Below, one piece after another: positions 7,592 to 51,326 of a stretch of DNA of 64,000 nt. Under the pieces are notes generated by a model. The model made no database searches, was not told the origin of the DNA, and was given only the letters and a program-made list of their open reading frames with translations. Position 1 is the first letter of the stretch, and the number at the start of each line of letters is the position of its first letter. This DNA is from Rhodothermales bacterium (GTDB taxonomy: Bacteria > Bacteroidota > Rhodothermia > Rhodothermales > JANQRZ01): NCBI GenBank assembly GCA_028284265.1, contig JANQRZ010000007.1:1-64000 (forward strand), given 5' to 3'. The position numbers were made by a program, and so were the translations under genes.

Positions 7592-7810
7592 GGCTAAGGT
7601 CACGACGGACTGCCTGTGGGCAATCAATCGGGACGAGTGTAGCAGGTAGGTTCCACCGTGGCCCATCAAGCAGCACAGGCGCAACGATAGGGCGACGCCA
7701 AGCCAAACGATAGGCGGAGTTGCATATCCGGGCATAGTGCGTGATCTTCCGGCTGCCTCTACCCGTGGCCTCGCTGGTAGGCACCCTCTCTCGTGCTATC
7801 CGATCAACGC

Positions 7811-9145
7811 ATGAACTGCTTTATTCTACATCGCCGCGCCTCTGCGCTCCTGCTTCTGCTGGGGATAGGCTTGCTCACGTCGAGCGCCTTGGCCCAGATA
7901 GACCCTCCGCAACGGCAGATTCGCACCTATATCCCGCCGGACCAACTCGTCTCGTTCTCGGCGGAGACGCCGTTCAACCAGTTCGTCGAATTCGTCAACC
8001 CGCTCTTTCAGCGCGTGACCGGCAAGGCCGTCGTAGACCTCACGGAGCGGACCGCGCCCATCGGCGTCAACGTGTCGGGTCTCCAGTTCCTCGATGCGTT
8101 TGAATTGGTCCTTGCCCAGGCGGGGCTAGTCTATCGGGAGACCGACCGGTACTTCTTGGTTGAGCCGTTCAATGCTGGCGATATAGGCGCGGTGGGACCA
8201 GCCAACCCGACGCCGGTTGCGCCCGTCGCCCGTGGGTCGCAGGTCACGGGCGATGACCGTGAGATCCGCATCGACGCGATCATCTTTGAGGCCAACGTAG
8301 ACCGTCTCCGCGAACTGGGGACGAACTGGACGCGGATCCTCGGCAGTCAGCAGCAAAACACCGGCGGCGGACCGACGACAGGCGATGATGGTGAACTGAG
8401 CACCGACCGGCTCCGGCTATTCCTTAACACGGAGTCACTCTTCGACAATATCTCGGACGTGCTCATCGGGCCGGACCAAGTTGATCTGGCCGAACTGAAT
8501 GCGTTCTTTCGTCTCTTGGAGTCGCGGGGCGTGGGCGAGACGATCTCCAGCCCGAGCATCGTCGTTCGCAGCGGGGAAGAGGGACGGATTCAGAGTGGAT
8601 CGGATATTCCGGTGACACTTCGGGATTTCGCAGGCAACACAGTCGTGCAGTACATCGCCACTGGCGTCATCGTCAACGTGCGCCCGGTGCTCATTCTCGA
8701 CGACGAGGACCCAGCCCGCGACCCGGTCGAGTTCATCCACCTCGTCATTGACGTGGAGAAAAGCTCGGGCCGACTGGGCGGCAACGGCCTTATCATCGAC
8801 AAGAATGAGGCGACGACGGACGTGCTGCTCCTCGACGGAGAGCAGACAGTCATCGGCGGATTGTACTCGACCGAAGAGTCGGTCTCCCGGAGTGGCGTTC
8901 CGATCCTCATGGACATCCCGCTGCTCGGGTACCTCTTCTCGACCAAGAACCGCTCGCTCATCGAGCGCGAACTCATCATCGTCCTGCAGACGCGGCTCGT
9001 GGATCCGCTGCGCGAGCGCGCCCGGCGAGCCTTCAAGACCGACCTCGTAGACGAGGAGCGCGAGGACGCCCGGCAGCGGTTGCTCCGAGCGAATCCCACC
9101 AGCGAACCGTATCTGGACGAGCTACCGGAGAACGACAACCAGTAG
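7811..9145 (+). CDS. short secretin family outer-membrane channel protein
   Basis: The ATG at 7811 gives 444 residues with a clear Sec signal peptide (LLLLLGIGLLTSSALAQ). Residues about 40-105 form one small STN/N0-like domain (FNQFVEFVNPLFQRVTGKAV). The C-terminal 230 residues are a secretin domain: SPSIVVRSGEEGRIQSGSDIP, an ATGVIVNVRPVL strand, LLLDGEQTVIGGLYS and the closing VPILMDIPLLGYLF, then ELIIVLQTRLV. It is much shorter than usual PilQ or GspD (about 600-750 residues) because most N-domains are missing. A secretin forms the outer-membrane ring for type IV pili or type II secretion. It lies 3 kb from, and opposite to, the pilus operon and is the only secretin in the window, so it is the likely partner. 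Confidence 0.85.
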   Translation: MNCFILHRRASALLLLLGIGLLTSSALAQIDPPQRQIRTYIPPDQLVSFSAETPFNQFVEFVNPLFQRVTGKAVVDLTERTAPIGVNVSGLQFLDAFELVLAQAGLVYRETDRYFLVEPFNAGDIGAVGPANPTPVAPVARGSQVTGDDREIRIDAIIFEANVDRLRELGTNWTRILGSQQQNTGGGPTTGDDGELSTDRLRLFLNTESLFDNISDVLIGPDQVDLAELNAFFRLLESRGVGETISSPSIVVRSGEEGRIQSGSDIPVTLRDFAGNTVVQYIATGVIVNVRPVLILDDEDPARDPVEFIHLVIDVEKSSGRLGGNGLIIDKNEATTDVLLLDGEQTVIGGLYSTEESVSRSGVPILMDIPLLGYLFSTKNRSLIERELIIVLQTRLVDPLRERARRAFKTDLVDEEREDARQRLLRANPTSEPYLDELPENDNQ

Positions 9146-11138: not shown

Positions 11139-12020
11139 CTATGCCGATGCGTTCCATAGCACCGGCGGCGGTCGGCGGGTGTCTGCCAGCGTAAACACTT
11201 CGTCGAATCGTCGGTGGAACATCGGCCACGCCAGCAGGAGGAAGCAAATCCCCACGAGGGCGAGGAGCGACGGGTCCGGCCCTGCAACCACCACCGGCAT
11301 CGGGTTGTTCACGAGGGCGTGCGCGGCGATGGCGACGAAGAGGTTGCCCGTGCGGAGATAGAGCGCCGTGAACAGGAAACCGACGAGGATGACGAGGAAG
11401 ATATAGGCCGCTACGTCACCGGACGACAGGCCCATGCGGAGTGCTGCCGGGATGTGGTTCAGACCGAAATAGAACTGGGGCAGGCCGAGGGCAATCACGG
11501 CTCGGTGCGTCCGGTTCGGTGTCCACGCTCGGGCGAGTAGGTAGAGTTGCGGGACGAGGAATCCCCGGTACATCACCTCCTCGATGAAGGCACTGCCGAA
11601 CGTCGCTTCGAGGAGCTTGCCGCTGAACCGCTCCGGTCCCAAAGCCAATTCGGGGTTCAGCGCAGGCTCGAACTGGGCGCTGACCGCCAAGCCACTCAGC
11701 ACGGCCTGAACCCCGCCCCAGATGAGGATCGTGACGATGACGGCGTTGGGGACGTGGCCCCACGTTAGCCCGAGATCGCAAAGGCGAAGCTTCCCGATCC
11801 ATAGCATCACGACGCCAACGAGAAGCACGACCTCGATCAGGCCCGCCAGCACCACGGGCGAGACGATGCCCGCGGTGGCGACCTCAACGGGGCGTGCCAC
11901 GTAAACGTAGAAGGGCACGCTGAAGAACACCGCCTTGAGGCCGAGGTGGAGCACCACGAACAAGGCCACCGAGACGGTGCGTGCAGACTTCGCGCTGTCA
12001 AAGAACGAGAGAGACGGCAT
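11139..12020 (-). CDS. CPBP family intramembrane glutamic endopeptidase-like protein
   Basis: This 293-residue membrane protein has about eight hydrophobic segments. The CPBP (Abi) motifs are present in order: FIEEVMYRGFLVPQ with the EE..R pair, FGLNHI, and AIAAHALVNNP with the last conserved His and Asn. Family members cleave transmembrane substrates (Rce1 type) or act in bacteriocin immunity; the substrate here is unknown. It stands alone on the minus strand. The 170 bases between its start and the end of the pilus operon should hold its promoter. Confidence 0.85.
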   Translation of the reverse strand: MPSLSFFDSAKSARTVSVALFVVLHLGLKAVFFSVPFYVYVARPVEVATAGIVSPVVLAGLIEVVLLVGVVMLWIGKLRLCDLGLTWGHVPNAVIVTILIWGGVQAVLSGLAVSAQFEPALNPELALGPERFSGKLLEATFGSAFIEEVMYRGFLVPQLYLLARAWTPNRTHRAVIALGLPQFYFGLNHIPAALRMGLSSGDVAAYIFLVILVGFLFTALYLRTGNLFVAIAAHALVNNPMPVVVAGPDPSLLALVGICFLLLAWPMFHRRFDEVFTLADTRRPPPVLWNASA

Positions 12021-12190: not shown

Positions 12191-13153
12191 CTACTGGCCT
12201 TCGATGGGTTCAAGCTGGACGCCATCGCCGAGGGCCTGGCGGTATTCGTTCTGCCCGCTGCCACTGCCTACGCGGAGGTTGACGGTCTCAACGCGGTCGC
12301 CCTTGTTGAGCTGGACGCGGACGAAGCTGTTGATCGGGTCGATCATCAAAATCTCGCCCAGATAGATTCGGTCGCCCTCCAGCATGACGTGACGACCGTA
12401 GCGGTCCTCGAAGATAGCTTGGCTGCCCATAATAGCCACGAGGGAGGCACTCTCCACATCAAGGAGTTGCTCGTCGTTAGGCGGAAGATCAGTCCGCACG
12501 AGCGGCGTGAAGGAGGCGTCCGGGGGACGGTGGGACGGGAGGATAGAAAGCGGAATCGGGCGGAGTGAGTCCTCCGGGGCACTGATTTCCTCGCTGCCCG
12601 CGAAGTAGGCATCCAACTCAAACTCGAAAGCGACCATGTCGAGGCGGCGGTCCACGTCGGTCCGGCGGTTCTTCTTGAATACATTGACGTGTTTCGCCGT
12701 GAGGTTGCGGATGCGGTAGAACTCGCGGTTGTTTTCGAGGTGCCACAGGAGGTGGTAGAAGTCGCTGTAGTACGCGGTGCCGTTGACGTTCCAGGTGTAG
12801 GTGCTGAAGTCTGGCCCGGTCGTCTGCTCGCCCAAAGCGAGGTCGAACTGCTCGAATCCATTGCGGGTCAAGCCTTCGAGATACTCGACCATGTCGGCGG
12901 TGTTGAGCGTGCGCGGGATGAACTTGTAGCGGGACCCCCACCGGCGGAGCACGTCCTCTGCCGCCTCTGCCGCTGCGACTTCGCGGATCGCTAGGTCCGC
13001 CGCACGGGTGTGCTGCATTTCGGCCTGCTGGCGGCGTTGCTGGATCTGCTCGATCTGCTGCTCCTGCTGCACATCGGTGATGTAGTAGCTCGAAGCCCCC
13101 ACGCCGACGGTGGCGAGGAGAATGAGCGCGGTGAGGACGACAGGGTTTTTCAT
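12191..13153 (-). CDS. PilO-PilP-like fusion, pilus alignment-complex protein
   Basis: I use the ATG at 13153 (320 residues); an in-frame GTG lies three codons upstream. One transmembrane helix (about 6-25) is followed by a Gln-rich coiled coil (QQEQQIEQIQQRRQQAEMQH) and a PilO-like ferredoxin fold (about 75-175). The C-terminal 75 residues (LDVESASLVAIMGSQ, YGRHVMLEGDRIYLGEILMI, INSFVRVQLNKGDRVETVNL) look like the PilP beta-domain that contacts the secretin. PilO and PilP are usually separate proteins. It would link the inner-membrane platform to the outer-membrane secretin. It is the last gene of the operon and follows the PilM-PilN fusion gene by 48 bases. No family hit was computed; the assignment rests on position and pattern. 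Confidence 0.7.
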   Translation of the reverse strand: MKNPVVLTALILLATVGVGASSYYITDVQQEQQIEQIQQRRQQAEMQHTRAADLAIREVAAAEAAEDVLRRWGSRYKFIPRTLNTADMVEYLEGLTRNGFEQFDLALGEQTTGPDFSTYTWNVNGTAYYSDFYHLLWHLENNREFYRIRNLTAKHVNVFKKNRRTDVDRRLDMVAFEFELDAYFAGSEEISAPEDSLRPIPLSILPSHRPPDASFTPLVRTDLPPNDEQLLDVESASLVAIMGSQAIFEDRYGRHVMLEGDRIYLGEILMIDPINSFVRVQLNKGDRVETVNLRVGSGSGQNEYRQALGDGVQLEPIEGQ

Positions 13154-13201
13154 AGGAGACACGGCGGGAATAAACAGAGCGATTCGTTTGAGACAGAAAG
13201 A

Positions 13202-15013
13202 TCAGTGGTCGTGCTGGGCCGGGCGCACTTCCGCGGGGCCTTCGGGATTGGCCTCGCCGGGCTGGATGTTGCGGAGGTAGTTCGCGGCACTGGGTAGCTC
13301 TTCGGGTGCCGGGAAAACCATCTCGTAGCTATAGACCCGGCGCTCGCCCACGTCCTGATAGTTGAGCTGCTCGATGGCCCCGTCGAGACGGCGCGACAGG
13401 TCGACGATGGCGAGTCGGGAGAGGGCGTGCCCGTTGATTCGCATCGCCTGCGTCCCCTCGGGTTGAATCTCATCTACCCACGTCTGCGGCGTGGCAGCGG
13501 TAGCACGAGAGATGCGCTCTGCTGTTTGCACCCACTTGTCGCTGCCGATGAGGAGCGAATCGAGGATGTTCAGAGCGCGTGTGTAGGTAGCGTGTGCCTG
13601 CTCGAGGCTATCGACGCGGGATTGGAGGGCGTCGGGGTTCTGTGCGGGAGGCGCTACCGGGTTGCGGAGGAACTCCTGTCGTACCTCGTTGACCTCTGTT
13701 GCCTTCGCCTGATAGCGGACGATGCTGAGGCCCACCATGCCGAGCAGCAGGACGGCGGCGAGGATCGTGTGCCATGCCACCGTAAAGCCTTGTCGGCGAC
13801 GTTGAAGACCCTTCGGAAGCAGGTTGACCGTCGCCGTTTCCCAGCCTTCGAGGAAGCGGAGTGCTACGGTAAGGGCCGGGAGCGTCTGGGCTTTTGTGTA
13901 GGCCTCCTCTTCGTCCGGCAGCGCGAGGCCCGAATCCGCCAGCACCTGATGCATCGGCTCAATGGCTGCGTGCTCGTAGTACGACCGGAAGGCGTCGAGG
14001 AGCGGCTTGCTTTCTCCGGCTCCAGCGACGAAGACGTTGTGGAGCTTGCCGATGCGGTTTTCGTCTTGCTGCAAGAGCACCCGGCTGCACACCGTGTCGG
14101 GCGCGTCGAAGGCGGTGAGGGAGCGGAGCCGTTCAAGGTGCTGGAGTTGCGTGCCTTTGAAGAACAGCACGAGCGTGTCCTCGGTGCCGACGCGGACGAA
14201 GGCGCTTTGCTCGTCGGCTCCCGGTTTCAGGGTGTGGGCCAGCAGCGCCGCGTAGGCAGAAACCTCGGTGTCGAGGAAGCGAGGCTGCACGCCTACGTGC
14301 TGCTCGCGCAGCGCGGCAAGAGTCGTCGAGACCGGCTCCGCCGGGTTGGCGACCAGCGCGAGGGCACGCCGCTGGGCGCGCGTCTCGGCGAGCGGTAGGA
14401 AGGCGACACGGTTGTTGTCGATGACGCCGTTGTGGTGCTGAGGCAGGGTCTCCAGCAGTGCCTTCCGCTCGGCGGACGAAAACGCTGTCTGCTGCTCTTT
14501 GGCTTTGCCTTTTGGCTTGTCGGTGCTGGGAACAGGAAGCTGGATGTAGGCCACGTCGGGCGGGGCGACGCAGAAGGCGACCTGCGGGTTCTCGTAGCCG
14601 AGGGCGCGGCATTCTTGGAGAATGTCTTTGAGTTGAGAGGCAAAGGGCGGGCGCTTTGTTGCACCTCCTCGAACGATCCCGCCGCGTGGTATGCCTTGGA
14701 TGCCCGGTTGGCCTAGGTCATCCTTCTTCACGCCGAGCTGGTCCAGCTCGGACGGGAGTAGTGAGGCGCTGCCGCCGCCCATGCTGCCATCGCCGACTTC
14801 GAGGGTATAGTCTGCATCGTCGCTTCCCTTGAGGTCGGGCACCGCCATAGCAAGCTCCTGCGCCGAGGCGAATTCGCTCTGGGCGACGCGCTGCCGGGCA
14901 AACCGTCGCACGACTTCCGTGCGCTCGCCCGACCGTTGGAGGAGCACCGCCTCGATGGTTTCCGAAGCGACGTAGACGCCAAGGGCCGTAGAGTTATCCG
15001 TTTTCTTTAGCAT
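13202..15013 (-). CDS. PilM-PilN-like fusion protein
   Basis: This is a 603-residue protein. Residues 1-410 resemble the actin-like ATPase PilM (LGVYVASETIEAVLLQRSG at the start, DTEVSAYAALLAHTL in the middle). There follows a LLPKGLQRRR motif before a single transmembrane helix (WHTILAAVLLLGMVGLSIVRY, about 425-446). The remaining 150 residues resemble PilN, including a coiled coil and a ferredoxin-like fold. In most type IV pilus systems PilM is cytoplasmic and binds the N-terminal tail of PilN; here they are one chain. A low-complexity Gly-rich insert (about 75-115) interrupts the PilM part. Between the PilT-like and PilO-PilP genes it occupies the usual pilMNOP position. Confidence 0.75.
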   Translation of the reverse strand: MLKKTDNSTALGVYVASETIEAVLLQRSGERTEVVRRFARQRVAQSEFASAQELAMAVPDLKGSDDADYTLEVGDGSMGGGSASLLPSELDQLGVKKDDLGQPGIQGIPRGGIVRGGATKRPPFASQLKDILQECRALGYENPQVAFCVAPPDVAYIQLPVPSTDKPKGKAKEQQTAFSSAERKALLETLPQHHNGVIDNNRVAFLPLAETRAQRRALALVANPAEPVSTTLAALREQHVGVQPRFLDTEVSAYAALLAHTLKPGADEQSAFVRVGTEDTLVLFFKGTQLQHLERLRSLTAFDAPDTVCSRVLLQQDENRIGKLHNVFVAGAGESKPLLDAFRSYYEHAAIEPMHQVLADSGLALPDEEEAYTKAQTLPALTVALRFLEGWETATVNLLPKGLQRRRQGFTVAWHTILAAVLLLGMVGLSIVRYQAKATEVNEVRQEFLRNPVAPPAQNPDALQSRVDSLEQAHATYTRALNILDSLLIGSDKWVQTAERISRATAATPQTWVDEIQPEGTQAMRINGHALSRLAIVDLSRRLDGAIEQLNYQDVGERRVYSYEMVFPAPEELPSAANYLRNIQPGEANPEGPAEVRPAQHDH

Positions 15014-15056: not shown

Positions 15057-16385
15057 TCAGTGCACGAGCGAGAGGAAACGGCGCTTGTTGTTGGCGTAGT
15101 TCATCGCAGTCTCCATCGTGATGTCCCCGATCTGGACGAGGCGAGCAAGGTCCTGTTCGAGCGTAATCATGCCCTGGTCGCCGCCCTGCCAGATCATCTG
15201 GTAGATTTCGTGGGTGTTGCCGTTCTTGATGGCAGCTTTGACGGCGGACGTCACCCACAGCACCTCTTTGGCGAGCACACGCCCGCCGCCGATAGCCGGG
15301 AGCAGCTTCTGCGAGACAACGCACCGAAGCACGTCGGCGAGGCGGTACCGGATGCGGTCCTGCTCTTCGGATGGGTACTCCGCCACAATCCGGTCGATAG
15401 ACTCTACCGCGCTGCCGGTGTGGAGCGTCGAGAACACCTTGTGCCCGGTGTCGGCGGTCTCGAGGGCCGTCGAGATCGTTTCGGGGTCGCGCATCTCGCC
15501 GACGATTACGATGTCGGGGTCCTGCCGCAACCCTTGGATCATCCCATCGGTGAAACTCTTGACGTCGGTCCCGACCTCGCGGTGGCGGACGATGCACTGC
15601 TTCGAGGTGTGGATGTATTCGAGCGGCTGGGCCACGACGAGGATGTGCCCCTCGAAGTCCTTGTTGTTGGCGTCGATGATGGCATCGAGCGTGGTGCTTT
15701 TGCCCGCGCCGGTGACGCCGGTGAACAGGGTGAGGCCGTCGCGGACGTGCCGGAACATGAACCCGCGCTCGATGATCGGGTGGAAGCCGAGGCTGCGCAG
15801 CGAGCGCGGCTGGTGGGCGAGGACGCGCTTGCTGAGAGCGAGGTGCTTGTTGTCGTAGTAGGTCGTGGTGCGGAAGCGGCGCAGGATGCCGCGGGCGCGT
15901 CCGGTGTGATCGGGGAGGGTATACCCGAAGTCTACGGCGAGGCGATCGAGGAGGCGCTGGTGCTGGGCCGGGGAGAGCAGGGTGAGGATGACGAGGTCGG
16001 CCTCGTCCATCGAGAACGTGCCCGCCGTCTCGTCCGCCCGCTTGCGCCCGTCGACCCGGTACCACACCGTGCCGTTAGCCGCCGGGCCGCCAAAGTCGAG
16101 GTCGGACGCATCGAGGTCGATCATGCGCTGCGCGAGTCCATCGTAGAGTGTCTGGACGGCATCGCGGTCGGCCTTGGGGACCTCGTCAAGTCGGTCGATG
16201 AACCACCGGATGCGGTCTTCGCCCTCTAGGTCTGGCGGCATCTCGTCCAGCACCTGATAGTACGAGGCGGGGAGAGGGCGCTCGGTCTCAATCACTGGTC
16301 CTCCATCGCCCGTACCGAGGTCAGGGGAGAGGCCGTTTCCGACAGATGCGCCGTCGCCGACAGGAAGATGCGGTGTGTGTTCCAC
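15057..16385 (-). CDS. PilT/PilU-like pilus ATPase with N-terminal extension
   Basis: The 442-residue product is a GspE/PilT superfamily ATPase about 100 residues longer at the N-terminus than PilT. Walker A is GVTGAGKSTT (about 223-232), Walker B RQDPDIVIVGEMRDPETI, then the His box ADTGHKVFSTLHTGSAVESIDRIV. PilT retracts pili by driving pilin disassembly. Two changes are visible: the Asp box (IEDPIEY) reads VAQPLEYIH, and the PilT C-terminal AIRNLIR reads AVKAAIK. Translation begins at GTG 16385, since no ATG fits the N-terminus. It lies between the third minor-pilin-like gene and pilMN. Confidence 0.85.
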   Translation of the reverse strand: MEHTPHLPVGDGASVGNGLSPDLGTGDGGPVIETERPLPASYYQVLDEMPPDLEGEDRIRWFIDRLDEVPKADRDAVQTLYDGLAQRMIDLDASDLDFGGPAANGTVWYRVDGRKRADETAGTFSMDEADLVILTLLSPAQHQRLLDRLAVDFGYTLPDHTGRARGILRRFRTTTYYDNKHLALSKRVLAHQPRSLRSLGFHPIIERGFMFRHVRDGLTLFTGVTGAGKSTTLDAIIDANNKDFEGHILVVAQPLEYIHTSKQCIVRHREVGTDVKSFTDGMIQGLRQDPDIVIVGEMRDPETISTALETADTGHKVFSTLHTGSAVESIDRIVAEYPSEEQDRIRYRLADVLRCVVSQKLLPAIGGGRVLAKEVLWVTSAVKAAIKNGNTHEIYQMIWQGGDQGMITLEQDLARLVQIGDITMETAMNYANNKRRFLSLVH

Positions 16386-16418: not shown

Positions 16419-17747
16419 TTAGGGCCGCTCGGCCCATTCGCGGTAGGAGACGAGGCGGACACCCTCGGGGACGCGGTCAGGAATGCGGGGGTCGTAGACG
16501 CTGTCGGCTCCTTCTTTGTAGAAGACCTTCGCACTGCCGCCGATGCCCACCGGCTGGCGGGAGACGATCCCGCCGACGATCATCCTCGGTCCGGACCCGC
16601 TGTGGGTGATCGTGCCATTCGTGTAGAGCATGGCCGCGAGGAAGGATCGCTCGCCGATGCTGACGTTGCCGTTGACGTAGAGGCCAATCGTGACGCCATC
16701 GGGTAGGTTGGCGTCGACCCACGTCCCCGTATCACCAGCCGTGCCCGTCAGGCTCGGGCGCCCCGAGATCGTCGAAGAGAGGCCGGAGTCATTGCCGATC
16801 GAGAGGGTGCCGTTGACGTAGATACGGATGTGGCCGGGGAGGCGGACCGGGCCGCTGACGGAGAGATTGCCATTAACGAAAAGGACGTAGGGATCAGTTG
16901 CAGTGCCCTTGCCGATCACGTCTGCGCCCCCCGCATCCGTCAGCCACCCATGCGTGAGGCTGTCACCTAGAGGCAGTGTAGTCGTGGGATCATTCAAGGT
17001 ACTAAGCGCCCAGGATGGCCCCGGCAGCACCGGCTGTTCGCTATCCCACGACAGGGGGGGAGACGTGACAAGGGGAGCGACAATGGAGTCGCGCTCAGCC
17101 AGAGAAGGGGTGCCAGTGAAGCGATTGTCTTGGGCGCTCTCGGTGCCAGTGTAGGTCCCGGTCCCGTACACCTCAAAGGAGCCGCTGCTGGAGTTGAGGT
17201 TGCGGTTGGAGTGGACATCTCCGGCGACCCAGGCGGTACCGCTCAGGTCGATGTCGCCGTTCGACCAGACAGCCTGACGGAAGCCGCTGGGCACATGGAC
17301 ATTCACCCATCGGCGCTCGTAGACCGCATCGACAACGAACTCCGTCGGCTCGACGGACTGCGAGGCTTCGTTCCAACTGTCAAACGCGCCCTTGACTTTG
17401 AGCCGGACGCGGTCCGGGTCTGCCGCATTTGTGGAATCACCGAGGTACATCTCGATGACGCGGGCGGCATAGGTCACCGAGATACTGTTCTCCATCGCGT
17501 ACACGGTGGTATCGATGTTGAAGCGATTCTGGGCGGTGGCAAGGACGCTGGTCCAGGCGTCGGGGCGGTCGTTGAGCCGGTGGACGACCCCGCGGAGGGC
17601 AATCTGCGAGGCTTCGCGTGCGATACGATCGGTCTGGTAGGCACTCAGCTCGTCGTTCGCGCTGCGCGTTGAGGCACGCGCATTGTAGAGCAACACCCCC
17701 CCGAGGAGGATGGCGCTGATCGCGAGAATGACGGCGTACTGTCCCAT
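16419..17747 (-). CDS. pilin-like protein with a C-terminal beta-rich domain (PilX-position)
   Basis: This 442-residue protein starts MGQYAVILAISAILLGGVLL, a hydrophobic N-terminal helix like a pilin but without a prepilin leader or the Phe1/Glu5 pair. Helix continues with ARASTRSANDELSAYQTDRI. From about residue 150 it turns into a repetitive beta-structure with 'WSNGDIDLSGTAWVAGDVHS', 'VLFVNGNLSVSGPVRL', 'RIYVNGTLSIGN' and 'GLYVNGNVSIGE' phrases that recur every 20-40 residues, like a right-handed beta-helix. It occupies the place of a PilX-type minor pilin and could be a tip or adhesive subunit. Function is inferred from position and shape only. Confidence 0.65.
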   Translation of the reverse strand: MGQYAVILAISAILLGGVLLYNARASTRSANDELSAYQTDRIAREASQIALRGVVHRLNDRPDAWTSVLATAQNRFNIDTTVYAMENSISVTYAARVIEMYLGDSTNAADPDRVRLKVKGAFDSWNEASQSVEPTEFVVDAVYERRWVNVHVPSGFRQAVWSNGDIDLSGTAWVAGDVHSNRNLNSSSGSFEVYGTGTYTGTESAQDNRFTGTPSLAERDSIVAPLVTSPPLSWDSEQPVLPGPSWALSTLNDPTTTLPLGDSLTHGWLTDAGGADVIGKGTATDPYVLFVNGNLSVSGPVRLPGHIRIYVNGTLSIGNDSGLSSTISGRPSLTGTAGDTGTWVDANLPDGVTIGLYVNGNVSIGERSFLAAMLYTNGTITHSGSGPRMIVGGIVSRQPVGIGGSAKVFYKEGADSVYDPRIPDRVPEGVRLVSYREWAERP

Positions 17748-17765
17748 GAGAGGCTCTCCGTGCAG

Positions 17766-18503
17766 CTAGTTCGTGACACGGATCAGGTTGGGCGGCCGGA
17801 ACCGGCGCACCCATCGCGCTTGGTCGATATCCCCGCGCTGCGCGATGTCGCTGGCATCCACGAAGCCGGTACCGCCGCCGAGCGGGGAAGCAGCTGCGAG
17901 GGCCACCTCGATGGCGCGGACGCTGTGCAGTTCGGCGGTGGTAGCCGGAGCATTGATGTCTACCGCGATCCCGTCGATGTTGTAGAACCGGAAGACGATC
18001 TCCGTGAGCGTATCGATGCTGGAACCGGCGGGGTCTAGGCTTCCGCTCCCATCGTCCACGAAGCGGCGGATGATGAACGTCGGCTTGGCTACGAAGTCGC
18101 GGGTAGTATAGTCGAAGACTTGGGCGGTGCCGACCTCACTCCACTCATACCGGACGCGGCGGTTGTAGTCGACGCTCGGGTTGAGCGCCGCGTTGCTGAC
18201 CGAGGCGTTGCGGTCAGTCCAAGAATAGAACTCGAGGTAGCCGGGCGTAGCGGTCGAGTCGTAGCTGCTGAGACTCGTGAAGCCGCCGTAGTTGGCCCGC
18301 ATGAAGGCGTTGCTCTGCCCGGCTCCCATGTTGCCGAGGTCTTCTTCGATCACCTCGGCGAAGTCGAGGACGCCACTCTTCGCTGCCGAATACTGGACCG
18401 AACTCGTCGTGTGGTTCTGACCACGCCACGCGATCACGGCGAGCATGAGGATGATCGTCGCCCCGATGACGGTGGATGCAATGATGGCAATGAGTTCTTG
18501 CAT
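17766..18503 (-). CDS. pilin-like protein (PilW-position)
   Basis: The 245-residue product begins MQELIAIIASTVIGATIILM, a long hydrophobic helix directly at the N-terminus, as in a mature pilin, then a Ser/Asn-rich globular part with short beta-strand phrases (YLEFYSWTDRNASV, VRYEWSEVGTAQVFDYTT, TEIVFRFYNIDGI, HSVRAIEVALAAASPLGGG). The pattern EIVFRFYN..G..V...A..IRAIEV is reminiscent of PilW-type minor pseudopilins. No prepilin peptidase site is seen. It follows the preceding pilin-like gene by four bases and is clearly co-transcribed with it. Confidence 0.65.
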   Translation of the reverse strand: MQELIAIIASTVIGATIILMLAVIAWRGQNHTTSSVQYSAAKSGVLDFAEVIEEDLGNMGAGQSNAFMRANYGGFTSLSSYDSTATPGYLEFYSWTDRNASVSNAALNPSVDYNRRVRYEWSEVGTAQVFDYTTRDFVAKPTFIIRRFVDDGSGSLDPAGSSIDTLTEIVFRFYNIDGIAVDINAPATTAELHSVRAIEVALAAASPLGGGTGFVDASDIAQRGDIDQARWVRRFRPPNLIRVTN

Positions 18504-18507
18504 AGCG

Positions 18508-19161
18508 TTACCAGGCCCAGCGGGAACAGGGCGTTTCAGCGGGGACGCGGTCGGCGGGGCAGGTGGTGCGCTCGAACGGGATGTCGACGTAGCTCGTCGC
18601 GCAGCCGTAGGTGAAGACGCGCTCCAAGGTGAGACTGAACTGTGCGTCAGGGTTGCTGGGGTCGTCGCCGACGTAGAGGAAGGGGTTCGTTACCTCGATG
18701 ATGACCTTCTTGGCAAACGAGGTCGAGTCATCCGGCAGCACGCGGTCGAAGTCGTTCGGATCGACGTACTGCACGTCGAGGATTTCTACGTTGTAGTCGA
18801 TGCCGCCGCGCGTGACCGGCTCGCGGACGCCCTCGAATCCCTCGATGAACCGGCAGTCCAGTCCCCGGTCATCCGTCGCGCACGCGCCGAAGTTGACGCT
18901 GCCTTCCCGAGAAAGGCGGTACTGCTTCTCCTCTTCGGCGATGCGACCGCAGTAGGGCAGTTCGCGCTCGTTGTCGAGGGTGTACTTGTCGAAGTGGCGC
19001 GTGCCGATTTGCTCCAATACGCCGGTGCCCACGCCGGTAAGCTGCGTAGCAACCTCGTTGAGGGCTTGCTCCTGCTGGTCGCGCCCCACGTTGCGTTGCA
19101 TGTTCATCGAGAGGAACATGACCATCATGAGCGCGAGGATGGCGTAGATGAGTTGGGCCAC
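18508..19161 (-). CDS. pilin-like protein, family unknown
   Basis: Translation starts at GTG 19161, two bases after the pilB stop, giving 217 residues. The N-terminus MAQLIYAILALMMVMFLSMN is a single hydrophobic helix followed by a polar helical stretch (RDQQEQALNEVATQLTGVG), the usual pilin layout. The C-terminal domain has at least six Cys residues (YCGRIAEEEK, FGACATDD, LDCRFIEG, YGCATSYV, RTTCPAD, TPCSRW), which suggests disulfides outside the cytoplasm. There is no prepilin leader. It is the first of three consecutive pilin-like genes and probably builds a minor or pseudopilin complex. Confidence 0.62.
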   Translation of the reverse strand: MAQLIYAILALMMVMFLSMNMQRNVGRDQQEQALNEVATQLTGVGTGVLEQIGTRHFDKYTLDNERELPYCGRIAEEEKQYRLSREGSVNFGACATDDRGLDCRFIEGFEGVREPVTRGGIDYNVEILDVQYVDPNDFDRVLPDDSTSFAKKVIIEVTNPFLYVGDDPSNPDAQFSLTLERVFTYGCATSYVDIPFERTTCPADRVPAETPCSRWAW

Positions 19162-19163
19162 GG

Positions 19164-21158
19164 CTAGTCCTCCACAGCGGTGACACGGATGACTTCGTCG
19201 ATGCTCGTCAGGCCGCGCTTGACGATTTCGCGGGCCGAGGCGAGGAGTGTCAGCATCCCTTCTTCGACAGCGACTTTACGGATCGCGTCTTCGTCCACGT
19301 CGCCCTTCGCCTTGACGATCATGTGCCGGATAGCGCGCGTGAAGTAGAGCGCTTCGGAAATCGCCTGCCGCCCCTTGTAGCCGATGCCGTTGCAGTTCGG
19401 GCAGCCATCCCGGTGGCCGGCCGTGTAGAAGGTCCGCGTAGCGATCTCCTCCGGCGTGAATCCGACTTCTTCCAGCAGGACCGGATCGGGGTCGCGGTCG
19501 GGCACTTTGCACGTCGGGCAGAGGGTGCGGAGGAGTCGCTGCGCCACGACGAGGTTGATCGCGTAGGCGATGAGGAATGGCTCGACCCCCATCTTATAGA
19601 GGCGACTGACGGCGCTCGGGGCGTCGTTCGTGTGGAGCGTCGAAAACGTGAGGTGGCCCGTGTTGGCGAGCTTGACGGCGAGTTCGGCGGTTTGCTGGTC
19701 GCGCATCTCACCGACCATCACCACGTCGGGGTCGTGGCGGAGGACGGAGCGCAGGGCGCGCTCCATCGAGATACGAGGGCCGAGCTTGATCTGGCGGACG
19801 CCACGAATCACATACTCCACCGGGTCTTCGATGGAAAGGACGTTGATCTGCGGGCGAATCACCTGATGCAGCGCGGCGACGAGGGTCGTGCTCTTGCCCG
19901 AACCGGTCGGGCCGGTCATGATGACCATACCGTAGGGCTGGCGGATCGCTTTCTGGAAGCGTTCCAGCGCGCCCGGCAGCAGGCCAATCGCGCCGAGGTC
20001 GCTGAACACTTTACGGTCGTCGAGCACACGAATGACGATGCTCTCAGCTTTGATGCCGTGGTTGGCGCTGGCAATCGGGAGGACGCTGACGCGGTAGCGA
20101 ATGAGGGTGCCGTCCACGGTACGCTGGATGTAGCCGTCCTGAGCAGCCTCGCGCTCGAAGCGGTCCACGTTGCCCGCCCGGTCTTTGATGACCGAGAGCA
20201 GCGCCTCGGGCGCGACCTTGTCCTCGGTGTGCCAGTGCTGAAGCTCGCCGTCGATGCGGAGGTGGAACTCGGTCCGGCGCTCGGCATCGGGGAAGACGTG
20301 GATGTCGGACGCGCCGAGACGGACGGCTTCGACGAGGCACGCCTCGACGAGGTTGATGAGGCCGGAGCGGTTGATCTCGGCCTCGATGGCCTCCTCATCG
20401 ATGAGCTGCTGCTTGCCCTCCTCGAACGAAGCGCCCAGCTCGTAGGCCCACTTCTCCTCCTGCATCCGCTCCAGATACTCATTGCGCTGGGGGAAGAGGG
20501 TGCGCAGGAGGGGGATGATCTTGCTCTCGGGCGCGTAGCGAAGCTCGTAGTCTTCGAGGCCGAGGCGGTGGACGAGCCGGAGCACATCCGGGGCTGTCGG
20601 GTCTTGACTGACGATGATGAGGCGGAGCACGCCGCGCTCGGGGTCTACCTCGTAGCGGATCGGGAGGAGCTGGAGCGCGAGGAGTTCGTCGCGGTTCTCT
20701 GCCGAGAAGCCTTCGACGAGCCGCTTGACAAAGTCACCCTCGACGGAGTCTGCGCTGATGGCTTCTTCGCGGAAGGCGTAGATCTTGGCCGCTTCGGCGT
20801 AGATGGCCTCGCGATTGACCTTCGGGTGCTGGGCCACCCATCGCCAAAGCGTTTCCTGCTCACCCTTGCGCCGCCACTGGTTGAACGCCTCGCGGACGTG
20901 GGCGAGCGTGACGAGTTCGCGGTCTAGCAGGCGGGCCACCACACGGTCGCGCCGGGCGGCCTCTTCGGTCTCGCTGTAGGACGGGGCCGAGGTGCGCTGG
21001 ACAGCGCTGCTTCCACCGTTCGAGGCACCGGGTGTGCCCACGAGTGGATCATCCACGACCAACTCCGACGAGCCGCCTTCGGTGTCCTTCTCGATGAAGG
21101 CTACGCTTTCCTCAGGCTCGTCCGCTTTGCCGAACATCTTTCGGAGTTCGTAGGCCAT
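19164..21158 (-). CDS. pilB: PilB/GspE-family pilus extension ATPase
   Basis: The 664-residue product has an N-terminal GspE/MshEN-like region (about 70-200), then the hexameric ATPase core: Walker A TGPTGSGKSTTL (about 415), Asp box SIEDPVEYVI, Walker B RHDPDVVMVGEMRDQQT and His box TGHLTFSTLHTNDAPSAVSR. A zinc-binding four-Cys module (LCPTCKVP... DGCPNCNGIGY) follows, as in PilB and GspE. It powers pilus or pseudopilus assembly at the inner membrane. Length is near the 570-residue norm plus a Ser/Gly-rich N-terminal extension. It is followed directly by pilin-like genes and preceded by pilC. Confidence 0.93.
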   Translation of the reverse strand: MAYELRKMFGKADEPEESVAFIEKDTEGGSSELVVDDPLVGTPGASNGGSSAVQRTSAPSYSETEEAARRDRVVARLLDRELVTLAHVREAFNQWRRKGEQETLWRWVAQHPKVNREAIYAEAAKIYAFREEAISADSVEGDFVKRLVEGFSAENRDELLALQLLPIRYEVDPERGVLRLIIVSQDPTAPDVLRLVHRLGLEDYELRYAPESKIIPLLRTLFPQRNEYLERMQEEKWAYELGASFEEGKQQLIDEEAIEAEINRSGLINLVEACLVEAVRLGASDIHVFPDAERRTEFHLRIDGELQHWHTEDKVAPEALLSVIKDRAGNVDRFEREAAQDGYIQRTVDGTLIRYRVSVLPIASANHGIKAESIVIRVLDDRKVFSDLGAIGLLPGALERFQKAIRQPYGMVIMTGPTGSGKSTTLVAALHQVIRPQINVLSIEDPVEYVIRGVRQIKLGPRISMERALRSVLRHDPDVVMVGEMRDQQTAELAVKLANTGHLTFSTLHTNDAPSAVSRLYKMGVEPFLIAYAINLVVAQRLLRTLCPTCKVPDRDPDPVLLEEVGFTPEEIATRTFYTAGHRDGCPNCNGIGYKGRQAISEALYFTRAIRHMIVKAKGDVDEDAIRKVAVEEGMLTLLASAREIVKRGLTSIDEVIRVTAVED

Positions 21159-21204
21159 AGGAAGGGGAGACGGTAGGTGGAACGACTAGAGGAGGCGTGG
21201 CGCG

Positions 21205-22560
21205 TTACTGCGCCTCAAACATAATGTCGGAACTGGTCGGCGAGATGAAGGCGCTCTCGGCGGATAGGATCGTGAGGAGGGCGACGAGGAGCGAGATGAA
21301 GATGGCTGTTGCTGTCTTGATCGTCTCGACGGCCGTTTCGAGCTTCAGGTCTACCTCTTTCTGGTAGAAGTCCGCCATCTCCTCGGCAGCTTCTTTCACA
21401 GCTCCGGTCTCGGCACCGGAGCGGAAGCGGGCGAGGGTCATCGGGAGGAAGACGCCGCTGGCCTGCATGCTCTCGACGAGGTCGCTCCCGGCGGCGGTAA
21501 GCAGAGGGATGGTGATCGTCTTGACTTGGTGCTCGACGAACGTGTTGCCCGTGGCTTCGGCAGAGATTCGCATCACCTCCTCACCCTCGCCGGACCCGCT
21601 ATAGAGCACGCCGAAGACGCGGCAGAAAATCTCCAAGTTGAGCTTGTGCAGGAGGTCGCCGAGCATCGGTAGCCGGATCATCCGCTTGTGGAGAATGAAC
21701 CGCCCCCGCGTGGTGCGCGCCCAGATGATGAAGCCGACAATGAGAAGGATCGTTATGAGAATGACGATCCACCCATTGGCATCCATCCACGTAGCGAAGC
21801 TCAAGGAGGCGGTCGTGAGCGGAGGGAGGTCCACGTTGTAGCGCGAGAAGAGGCGGGCGTAGGACGGGACGATGTACCAGACGTACCAGATGAACGCCGC
21901 GATGGCCGCCAGCAGCGTGATCATCGGTGTGATCATGGCGCTGCGGATGCTCTTCTTGAACTTGTCCTTCCGCTCCAGATAGAGCGCCGTCGCCTCGAAC
22001 ATTTCGGCCATGTTGCCGCTGACCGTGGCGAGGCCGAGCATATAGGACGTGAACTTGCCGAGCGTGTGCTGGTGCTTGAGGAAGGCATGGCGGGCGTCCA
22101 TCCCGCTCTTGAGGTCGCTCGACAGGTCGCGGATCGTCTGGCGGAGCGAGCCGTTGCTGGTGTCGGTTGCCAGCAGGTTCAGAATCTCATCGAAGGAGAG
22201 CCTGCGCCGGAGCATGTTGGATGCAAGCCGGACGAACATCACGATGTCCCCGCTCGGCGGCTTGAGTTGGAAGTCCAGCAGCTTCTTCTCGACCTTGACC
22301 ACGTCGAGGCCGACGCGCTCCAAAGCGGCACGAACTTCCTCGGCGGAGTAGGCCTTCTGCTCGCCCTTGACGATCTGACCGCCTGCGTGGCGGACCCGGT
22401 ACTGGAACGTAGCCCTCGGCGCGACCTCCTGCGTCTGGAAGTTGTGCTGGTCGGCCAGGGTACCGATCCGCTTTCTCGCTTGACGCGGGTTGGGTGCGAA
22501 GACGGTGCCGCGCACGGCCTCGCCTGACACATTCACCCCGATGAAGCGGTACTCGCGCAT
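21205..22560 (-). CDS. pilC: PilC/GspF-family inner-membrane platform protein
   Basis: I start at the ATG at 22560 (451 residues); the 24-codon upstream extension has no family likeness. The opening REYRFIGVNVSGEAVRGTVF is the usual N-terminus of PilC. Two T2SSF repeats follow, each with hydrophobic helices: FVRLASNMLRRRLSFDEIL first, and RTTRGRFILHKRMIRLPMLGDLLHKLN introducing the second. The end has SLLVALLTILSAES, the last membrane segment. PilC is the platform turned by PilB to add pilins. It is the second gene of the operon, after the pilin-like gene 22660-23142. Confidence 0.92.
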   Translation of the reverse strand: MREYRFIGVNVSGEAVRGTVFAPNPRQARKRIGTLADQHNFQTQEVAPRATFQYRVRHAGGQIVKGEQKAYSAEEVRAALERVGLDVVKVEKKLLDFQLKPPSGDIVMFVRLASNMLRRRLSFDEILNLLATDTSNGSLRQTIRDLSSDLKSGMDARHAFLKHQHTLGKFTSYMLGLATVSGNMAEMFEATALYLERKDKFKKSIRSAMITPMITLLAAIAAFIWYVWYIVPSYARLFSRYNVDLPPLTTASLSFATWMDANGWIVILITILLIVGFIIWARTTRGRFILHKRMIRLPMLGDLLHKLNLEIFCRVFGVLYSGSGEGEEVMRISAEATGNTFVEHQVKTITIPLLTAAGSDLVESMQASGVFLPMTLARFRSGAETGAVKEAAEEMADFYQKEVDLKLETAVETIKTATAIFISLLVALLTILSAESAFISPTSSDIMFEAQ

Positions 22561-22659
22561 GGCAATGAGAAAGAGAGCGTAGGAGCAGCGGCGACGCCCC
22601 GGTGAGCAGAGCCGGGACGCCGCCTCATCCACTCAAGACGGTAGAAAGGCTCCTAAGAC

Positions 22660-23142
22660 CTACGGGCAGGCAGCGGTTTGTAGACCTGTCGAGACACCAG
22701 CAATCTGTACGATCCTAGAGATAATGTCTCCGTCGGTCAGTCCGCAGACGGCGAGGCTGACAATGGTACTGTCGCCGGTGGCATTCGGGTCGTTGGTGGC
22801 CTGCAGGAAAAAGCCCGCCGAGCTAGCGCCGACGACTTCAAAGTTGCCGTTCAGGTTGGAATAGGTGTCTTCGCCCGGATAGCCGAGTGCGCCCAGCGTT
22901 GCACCGGTATAGTCTCTCGGGTCGTTGACGACGCTCGCGTCTTCCGACGAGGCTTGGCCACCGAACGGGGCGGGCTTGCGCTTCCACGACTGGGCGTCGT
23001 TGGCGATACGGACGGCGTCCTGCACGATGGCGTCGGCGTTGGCCTTGGCGCTGTTCTCACTGAACGCGGCGATACCCACCACGATGGCGGTGCCGACGAT
23101 GACCGTCGCAAGGACGAGAAGGATGAGCTGTTGCTGGCCCAT
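22660..23142 (-). CDS. probable major pilin-like protein
   Basis: The ATG at 23142 is preceded by an AAGAGG ribosome-binding site nine bases away, one of few clear ones in the window. The 160-residue product begins MGQQQLILLVLATVIVGTAI, a hydrophobic N-terminal helix running into a polar helix (NSAKANADAIVQDAVRIAND). The small C-terminal domain has two Cys residues (VCGLTDGD and TAACP at the extreme end), like the disulfide loop of type IV pilins. No charged leader or G|FxxxE cleavage site exists. First position, strong ribosome-binding site and small size suggest it is the most abundant subunit. Confidence 0.7.
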   Translation of the reverse strand: MGQQQLILLVLATVIVGTAIVVGIAAFSENSAKANADAIVQDAVRIANDAQSWKRKPAPFGGQASSEDASVVNDPRDYTGATLGALGYPGEDTYSNLNGNFEVVGASSAGFFLQATNDPNATGDSTIVSLAVCGLTDGDIISRIVQIAGVSTGLQTAACP

Positions 23143-49625: not shown

Positions 49626-51326
49626 CTAGCTTTCGGCATGTATGCCATTTTTTGGCATCTCAGGTAGAAGCCTGAAAATTGGCCATGACTTGAGAAATTC
49701 TTTTAGGTCATCACCGTTCGGGTCTTTTAGCTTTTTGTCTATTAAAATTTGGGCTTCCTTGGCCTTTCCTAATACGATTAACGCTCCAATCTTAGCGTAA
49801 TCATCTTCTGAATTAGCAGATATGTATTCGAGGTCAGATGCTTCTTCATCATTAAGTTCCAGTTCTTTATGTCGTTTTATCTGAGCCTTGTTGATCTTGA
49901 AATATTCAGTGTCAAATGCTTTCTTGTTAGCTTGGCGACGATATACGTCGTAGCCTATATCTAAGACTTGATCAGCGTAATCATAGAGCTTAGCATCTAT
50001 CAGACTGAGAGCAAAATTGAAAGTATTGGAAGGTTGATCGTCAAGAATTGACTTAGACTGTCTAAGGCTTTCGACTAGGTATGCTGCTAGTTCTTTGTCT
50101 CTTTCCTTGTTTAACAGCTCAAAAGCCAGGCCGTATGCATCTAGAGTAGGCCTTGATTTAATCTGCTCTAGTATCGATTGCATGGCACTAGAAAAATCTC
50201 CCATCCTCTGCTGAACCTGAGCCAACAACCTGAAAGGAAGTTCAATGTAATTATTTGAGGAGGATGCGTCACCAGTTTCTCCGTCATTGTCAATTTCTCT
50301 TTCCTTATCAGACAGCCGACCATCTGCTAATCTGTTTATTTCTCTGCCAAGGTTTCTGATGTCACGCTCAATAACTTTGTGTGTTTGTGCAGATTTTGGA
50401 AGCCGAACTCTGTCTAATAGGGAATTAAGCTTAGTTGCAAGGGCTCCATACGGATCTATCATCTCAGGTTGTAGGTCCAGATCTAGATCGTCGTGTATCT
50501 CGGCAAAGAATTCGTCGAATCCTTCGATTTCAACTAAGTTGAAGCGTGGAAATCTCTTAAGTGCCAGAACATTATCGGTGATTTCAGAACCCTTGCGAAC
50601 GCACCAGTACACTCCATGAGGAAAATTGTGATCAAATCGAAGCAAAGAGTCAAGATTGTCCATAACCGACCTGTCCTGCCCAGAGTATCCTAAAACAATT
50701 AAGCCGAATTCTGTTGCATATTGCTTGAATTTGTCTCTCATATTTTCTTCTAGTGATTCTAGTTCTCTCTCGGTGTTCTTAATGTTATCAAACAGAAAGT
50801 CACCGTGTAGCTTTATTATTTTTGGTCTTTTAGAGGTGAGGCGAAGAGTCCTGATACTTGAGTCGTGAGCGCACACTATTGGTCTTACGTCACTGCTAAA
50901 CTGGTAACACGCCTCATTCAGGAGATCATCAAAGTTAGTTGTAAATACAGTATTAAATACGTTATTTCTTATGAGACTTACTAGGTAGATGTAGCCCCAA
51001 GATGGGAATGCTTCATATATGCATTTTTCAATAAACTCTCTTCTTTGGCTAGGTTGGTCAAATAGGGCTTCAAATAAAAACGAATACTCATTCGGATTGC
51101 CATGCCAAGGCTGTTGTTGCACGAAATAATCATACTCTGTATCACCGCCGTATATTGAGTGGTATTTAACTCTCCAGCTTTTTATCATTGCTGAGGCTGT
51201 CATTACGCCGCTAGTGGCACTTGCTCCAGCTCCAAGCAATAGAGCAAAATTAGGGTGATGCTCTCTGGTTTCACAGATGATATTGCAAATATGTTGTTGC
51301 GGCTTGAGTGGCGAGCGTGTATCCAT
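49626..51326 (-). CDS. SIR2-domain protein, probable phage-defence effector
   Basis: This 566-residue protein has a SIR2 NAD-binding domain at the N-terminus: FALLLGAGASATSGV (about 28-42), TTNFDDLL (N131, D133) and KLHGDF (H174). The last 240 residues are alpha-helical repeats of TPR type (FRLLAQVQQRMGDFSSAMQ, LAFELLNKERDKELAAYLVE). In known defence systems such SIR2 proteins deplete NAD+ after infection. The gene is far richer in A+T (near 40% G+C by eye against over 60% around) and uses A- and T-ending codons, so it is probably transferred. The translation start is ATG 51326. Partner genes are not visible, so it would act alone. Confidence 0.8.
   Translation of the reverse strand: MDTRSPLKPQQHICNIICETREHHPNFALLLGAGASATSGVMTASAMIKSWRVKYHSIYGGDTEYDYFVQQQPWHGNPNEYSFLFEALFDQPSQRREFIEKCIYEAFPSWGYIYLVSLIRNNVFNTVFTTNFDDLLNEACYQFSSDVRPIVCAHDSSIRTLRLTSKRPKIIKLHGDFLFDNIKNTERELESLEENMRDKFKQYATEFGLIVLGYSGQDRSVMDNLDSLLRFDHNFPHGVYWCVRKGSEITDNVLALKRFPRFNLVEIEGFDEFFAEIHDDLDLDLQPEMIDPYGALATKLNSLLDRVRLPKSAQTHKVIERDIRNLGREINRLADGRLSDKEREIDNDGETGDASSSNNYIELPFRLLAQVQQRMGDFSSAMQSILEQIKSRPTLDAYGLAFELLNKERDKELAAYLVESLRQSKSILDDQPSNTFNFALSLIDAKLYDYADQVLDIGYDVYRRQANKKAFDTEYFKINKAQIKRHKELELNDEEASDLEYISANSEDDYAKIGALIVLGKAKEAQILIDKKLKDPNGDDLKEFLKSWPIFRLLPEMPKNGIHAES

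Follow-up and report, generated by a model that had tools for sequence, protein, structure and literature searches.

The window (the whole stretch of DNA that was analysed, 64,000 nt) contains four pilin genes, all located on the minus strand. Pilin 1, the putative major subunit of 160 aa (22660..23142), starts with MGQQQLILL and is composed of a helix (residues 2-55) followed by a beta domain. Pilin 2 (18508..19161), a leaderless minor pilin, starts with MAQLIYAI from a GTG codon. Pilin 3 (17766..18503), starting with MQELIAII, is a leaderless minor pilin of the GspJ/PilW type according to the comparison of its AlphaFold model with GspJ-type entries. Pilin 4 (16419..17747), a long minor pilin that is leaderless and contains a repeat-rich domain, starts with MGQYAVIL, and a PilX/GspK-like role is inferred for it. 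None of the four was recognised by Pfam and NCBIfam. At the C-terminus of pilin 1 (22660-22760) there are two cysteines (SLAVCG ... TAACP) that are not conserved across the family; by analogy with type IVa pilins, they might possibly close a disulfide loop.

The genes of a pilus machine were found among and beyond the pilin genes. Between the pilin genes are located a PilC/GspF-like inner-membrane platform (21205..22563, minus strand; T2SSF E=1.3e-25; NCBIfam PilC models at E ~1e-48, under the curated cut-offs) and a PilB/GspE-like extension ATPase (19164..21158, minus strand; T2SSE E=5e-96), which scored 387 bits with GspE and 383 bits with PilB, both under the curated cut-offs. Beyond the pilin genes, the minus strand encodes a PilT-like retraction ATPase (15057..16385; TIGR01420 E=2e-92, 310 bits, slightly under the cut-off of 319), a PilM-like protein that is possibly a PilM-PilN fusion (13202..15013) and a GspM/PilO-like protein (12191..13162). 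The last two showed weak matches (Amuc_1101-family PilM-like, E=9e-5; GspM, E=0.0024), and both are kept in the operon. An outer-membrane secretin of the PilQ type is encoded on the plus strand (7793..9145), with PF00263 at 8516-9001 (E=1.8e-32).

In many genomes of relatives the operon order, over regions of ~19-20 kb, is pilin1-PilC-PilB-minor pilins-PilT-PilM-GspM, and in 34 of the 41 relative loci a secretin-containing cluster has been retained where the operon ends. Since the PilC, PilB, PilT, PilM-like, GspM-like and secretin genes are all present, the genes at this locus amount to those of a diderm type IV pilus or a close relative of it, not to stray membrane proteins, and a complete type IV pilus-like machine is encoded here. 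Contig C14 of the same genome carries another leaderless-pilin operon (~265-279 kb), which encodes two MGQQQ pilins together with a full machine, and a secretin lies on this contig as well (C14:278506-278988). Two leaderless-pilin operons were also observed in another genome (G032), from which the prepilin peptidase (A24) is absent.

Subunit folds and relation to known systems

The AlphaFold model of pilin 1 reached a pLDDT of 94. Through structural alignment (VIA-align), nine of its ten best rows were type IV pilins or pseudopilins, with Z from 8.0 to 4.3. These values are within a possibly unspecific range even at the maximum, and the argument rests on pilins making up almost the whole top ten. 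Foldseek alone gave no significant match of pilin 1 in the PDB (best E 1.4), and a profile of 93 pilin 1 homologues weakly matched the Streptococcus sanguinis pilin PilE1 (E=0.024). The pilin 3 model matched ten GspJ-type or pilin-like entries with Z of 9.8-11.3, the next row being 3.3. According to the predicted structures, pilin 1 adopts a pilin fold, and pilin 3 that of a GspJ-type minor pilin.

By sequence and by structure, residue n of pilin 1 corresponds to about residue n-3 of mature pilins, and residue n of pilin 3 equals entry residue n-1 in several matched structures. From these registers, the genes begin one to three residues from the prepilin cut point, and the Asp or Glu frequent at residue 6 of the pilin 3 family falls at mature position +5.

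The locus has three of the features of the type IV filament superfamily (T2SSE-family ATPase, PilC/GspF platform and pilin-fold subunits, pilins 1 and 3 having been modelled) but lacks its class III signal peptide and, in most pilin-positive genomes, its A24 peptidase. Of the type IVa pilus it has the PilT/PilU retraction ATPase and the outer-membrane secretin, but not Glu5 in the major pilin. Regarding type II secretion, the GspJ-type minor pseudopilin is met by the pilin 3 model, and the absence of a retraction ATPase is not met. With type IVa pili (PilA/PilB/PilC/PilT/PilM-O/PilQ) the window system shares the extension and retraction ATPases, the platform, the PilM-like protein, the secretin, helix-plus-beta-domain subunits and a GspJ/PilW-type minor pilin. 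It differs in that no class III signal peptide exists on any of the four subunits, Glu5 is missing from the major pilin, PilD is usually missing from the genome, and the genes lie in one operon. With type II secretion (GspE/F/G/I/J/K/M/O) it shares a PilB that is equally GspE-like, the GspM-like protein and the GspJ-like pilin 3 model; however, the window locus has a PilT-like ATPase and neither GspO nor a class III leader, and a separate ordinary T2SS-like locus is present in the same genome.

It might be argued that these proteins are membrane-anchored relatives of pilins without long surface fibres, and that the machine serves secretion or sensing and is not a pilus. In the literature found, no filament is reported for these taxa, and the GspE- and GspM-like scores together with the GspJ-like pilin 3 would also fit a T2SS-like pseudopilus. 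Against this, a dedicated PilT-like ATPase gene is found in almost every operon, and there are several tandem copies of the major pilin. We consider this explanation unlikely.

Conservation of the pilin starts

Prepilins are described in a review as invariably carrying a class III signal peptide, while Glu5 is frequent and not universal (PMC10191384). The class III signal peptide, a hydrophilic leader ending in Gly or Ala, was found neither in the window pilins nor in their relatives. Basic leader, G|F site and Glu5 are absent from pilins 1 to 4 of the window; in pilin 1, the position of Glu5 is occupied by Q5 by direct count and by L8 by structural register.

Through full-protein search, pilin 1 was found in 103 of the 146 genomes of the class, the listed matches aligning from residue 1. 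Residue 1 is the initiator codon in 188/188 distinct homologues (185 ATG, 2 GTG and 1 TTG). The start MGQQQ occurs in 182 of them and VGQQQ or LGQQQ in three more; 184 of the 188 have a start of these types or one that is one or two residues off. Part of this set was retrieved by an MGQQQ-seeded scan, but the 107 homologues not so selected comprised 102 MGQQQ, two VGQQQ (GTG), one LGQQQ (TTG) and two MGSQQ. An in-frame stop lies upstream of the start within one codon in 24 of the 188 homologues, within four in 108 and within nine in 149.

These counts bear on the possibility of mis-called starts, namely that the proteins are ordinary prepilins whose leader lies upstream or begins at a non-standard start codon. 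In its favour, an in-frame GTG 16 codons upstream of window pilin 1 offers an alternative start, which is not conserved. A conserved leader is ruled out because position 1 holds a start codon in every homologue, alternating between ATG, GTG and TTG, and because of the close upstream stops in 149 homologues. As a general explanation, mis-called starts are refuted, and hardly any room is left for them: the pilin genes of the window are leaderless and their starts are real.

The relatives' pilins 2, 3 and 4 likewise open directly with the helix, starting with MQQT, MAQ, MNTGE or MGSRE in pilin 2, MxxLLD/E in pilin 3 and MG[K/R/Q] in pilin 4. A simple script based on hydrophobicity picked these minor-pilin starts, of which some are perhaps a few residues off. 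A scan of named genomes found the MGQQQ pilin in Rhodothermales (including Salinivenus and Roseithermus), Balneolaceae, KSB1 and bacterium SM23_31. In the phylum sample, the pilin was present in 130 of 394 genomes, also in families outside the class, and 15 pilin regions from such families had mostly the same operon and starts. In Rhodothermales, Balneolaceae and other families of the phylum, and in KSB1 as well, the major pilin starts almost without exception with MGQQQL.

The initial annotation had claimed that four proteins start directly with the hydrophobic helix, with no basic leader, no G|F site and no Glu5, unlike standard type IV pili. The starts and the lack of leader and G|F site held for all four proteins at the positions given above. 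The lack of Glu5 also held for these four but fails family-wide, since most pilin 3 relatives keep the acidic residue at mature +5. The contrast to standard type IV pili is supported, and the pattern is far broader than the window alone. Upstream in-frame leaders in relatives, which would have refuted the claim, were looked for and are absent.

Distribution of the prepilin peptidase

No prepilin peptidase was found within the 64,000-nt window, as the initial annotation had noted. The genome-wide search revealed one A24 peptidase on contig C20 (C20:105399-105716), inside the separate T2SS-like locus. This locus (L061:8371-14898) contains ordinary prepilins (GFTLPELL, GFTLVEVV, GYTVAESA and GSAIVMVL) together with the only A24 of the genome, and it serves as an internal control for the leaderless system. 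The long PilX-like protein encoded there has a repeat-rich domain, too. Direct BLAST between pilin 4 and the long class III protein of this locus was not significant, and hhalign of pilin 3 with its GspJ-like protein gave nothing.

PF01478 matched in 13 of the 146 class genomes, eleven of which are pilin-positive. The peptidase is thus absent from most pilin-positive genomes (92 of 103 in the class; ~11%, including the genome studied, have it). In the phylum sample it was absent over the family cut-off from 115 of 130 pilin-positive genomes; the two samples overlap, and the counts are not independent. Six single-contig genomes are among the pilin-positive genomes without the peptidase. A clade-specific profile, built from A24 proteins of the class and phylum, matched 12 class genomes at E <1e-35, all within the 13 of PF01478. 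It revealed no weaker matches, and therefore diverged A24 copies are unlikely. The ordinary class III prepilin motif co-occurs with A24 in 12 of the 13 class genomes, and a secretin co-occurs with the leaderless pilin in 98 of 103. In one genome (G056, 98% complete), two class III prepilin motifs were observed at C4:443400-443818 without an A24 match.

Another explanation would be processing by an A24 peptidase encoded elsewhere in the genome. The one A24 of the own genome speaks for it, as do the MSH pilus loci, which according to a 2019 survey lack a local peptidase in genomes that have one (PMC6668835). The MSH genomes, however, possess the peptidase of another system, whereas here most genomes have none by either profile, and the subunits carry no cleavable leader. 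For the family this explanation is refuted, and it is very improbable in general.

A further explanation is an ultrashort leader of at most three residues, in which an unknown non-A24 endopeptidase cuts off MG or MGQ, and in pilin 3 only M. Pilin 1 does extend three residues beyond the canonical mature N-terminus, MG[Q/K/R] is common to pilins 1 and 4, and the near-invariant G2 could be a recognition mark. Against it, the canonical -1 residue is Gln or Met instead of Gly or Ala, pilins 2 and 3 start differently (MQQT, MPQT, MNTGE, MxxLLD), and the leaderless-pilin operon has no conserved peptidase family among the relative loci compared. We regard it as unlikely, but since an overhang of one to three residues (M, or MGQ) remains, cleavage by an unknown enzyme is not strictly excluded. 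Between the two possibilities raised by the initial annotation, very short cleavage or use without processing, the data favour the latter.

The gene of a CPBP-type intramembrane protease, identified by motifs, adjoins the pilus operon (11139-12020). This protease was examined as a possible substitute for the prepilin peptidase; with homologues near only two relative loci, it does not qualify as a general partner.

Proposed assembly of born-mature pilins

The best explanation, and a likely one, is a diderm type IV pilus-like machine that is dynamic and has 'born mature' pilins, though no biochemistry is available, and filament assembly, retraction and the lack of processing are inferred. According to this proposal, translation would start one to three residues ahead of the usual cut point of the prepilin peptidase, and the peptidase would not be needed because the subunits would be born mature. 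The N-terminal helix would act as membrane anchor from the outset and carry the subunits into the inner membrane, where PilB and PilC would polymerise them without class III signal peptide, A24 peptidase or N-methylation, the N-terminal chemistry being inferred. PilT would retract the fibre, and the secretin would let it out. Methionine aminopeptidase removes Met1 before Gly; at most, this enzyme would trim Met1 where residue 2 is small, leaving GQQQL as the end of the major pilin. We might suggest that the nearly invariant GQQQ replaces the packing role of the Phe1/Glu5 pair of ordinary pili, although its place in the filament core is inferred, as is the absence of any trimming of the first residues.

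A bolder reading is that a filament lineage across the phylum and KSB1 has dropped prepilin processing entirely, with every pilin encoded in mature form, without class III signal peptide, peptidase and N-methylation, and with the MGQQQ end in place of the Phe1/Glu5 chemistry. We lean toward this reading. In the open-licence literature searched (no preprints), we found no description of leaderless, MGQQQ or peptidase-independent pilins.

Type IV filaments are regarded as universally dependent on prepilin processing, which counts as one of their defining steps, and pilin searches rely on the signature of this processing. A processing-free machine would explain why the genomes of this group seem pilus-less or incomplete to standard tools, and it predicts that signature-based pilin counts in these phyla are far too low. 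An incomplete type IV pilus set was described for Melioribacter roseus (PMC3534657), whose membership in the leaderless group is inferred. The leaderless system would provide a natural experiment on the purpose of leader cleavage and N-methylation, and a simple processing-free subject for structural work.

Elsewhere in the window, a SIR2-like gene (by its N-terminal motif) was found at 49626-51326 in a stretch of low G+C content (0.566 vs ~0.64); it may possibly be an acquired defence gene.
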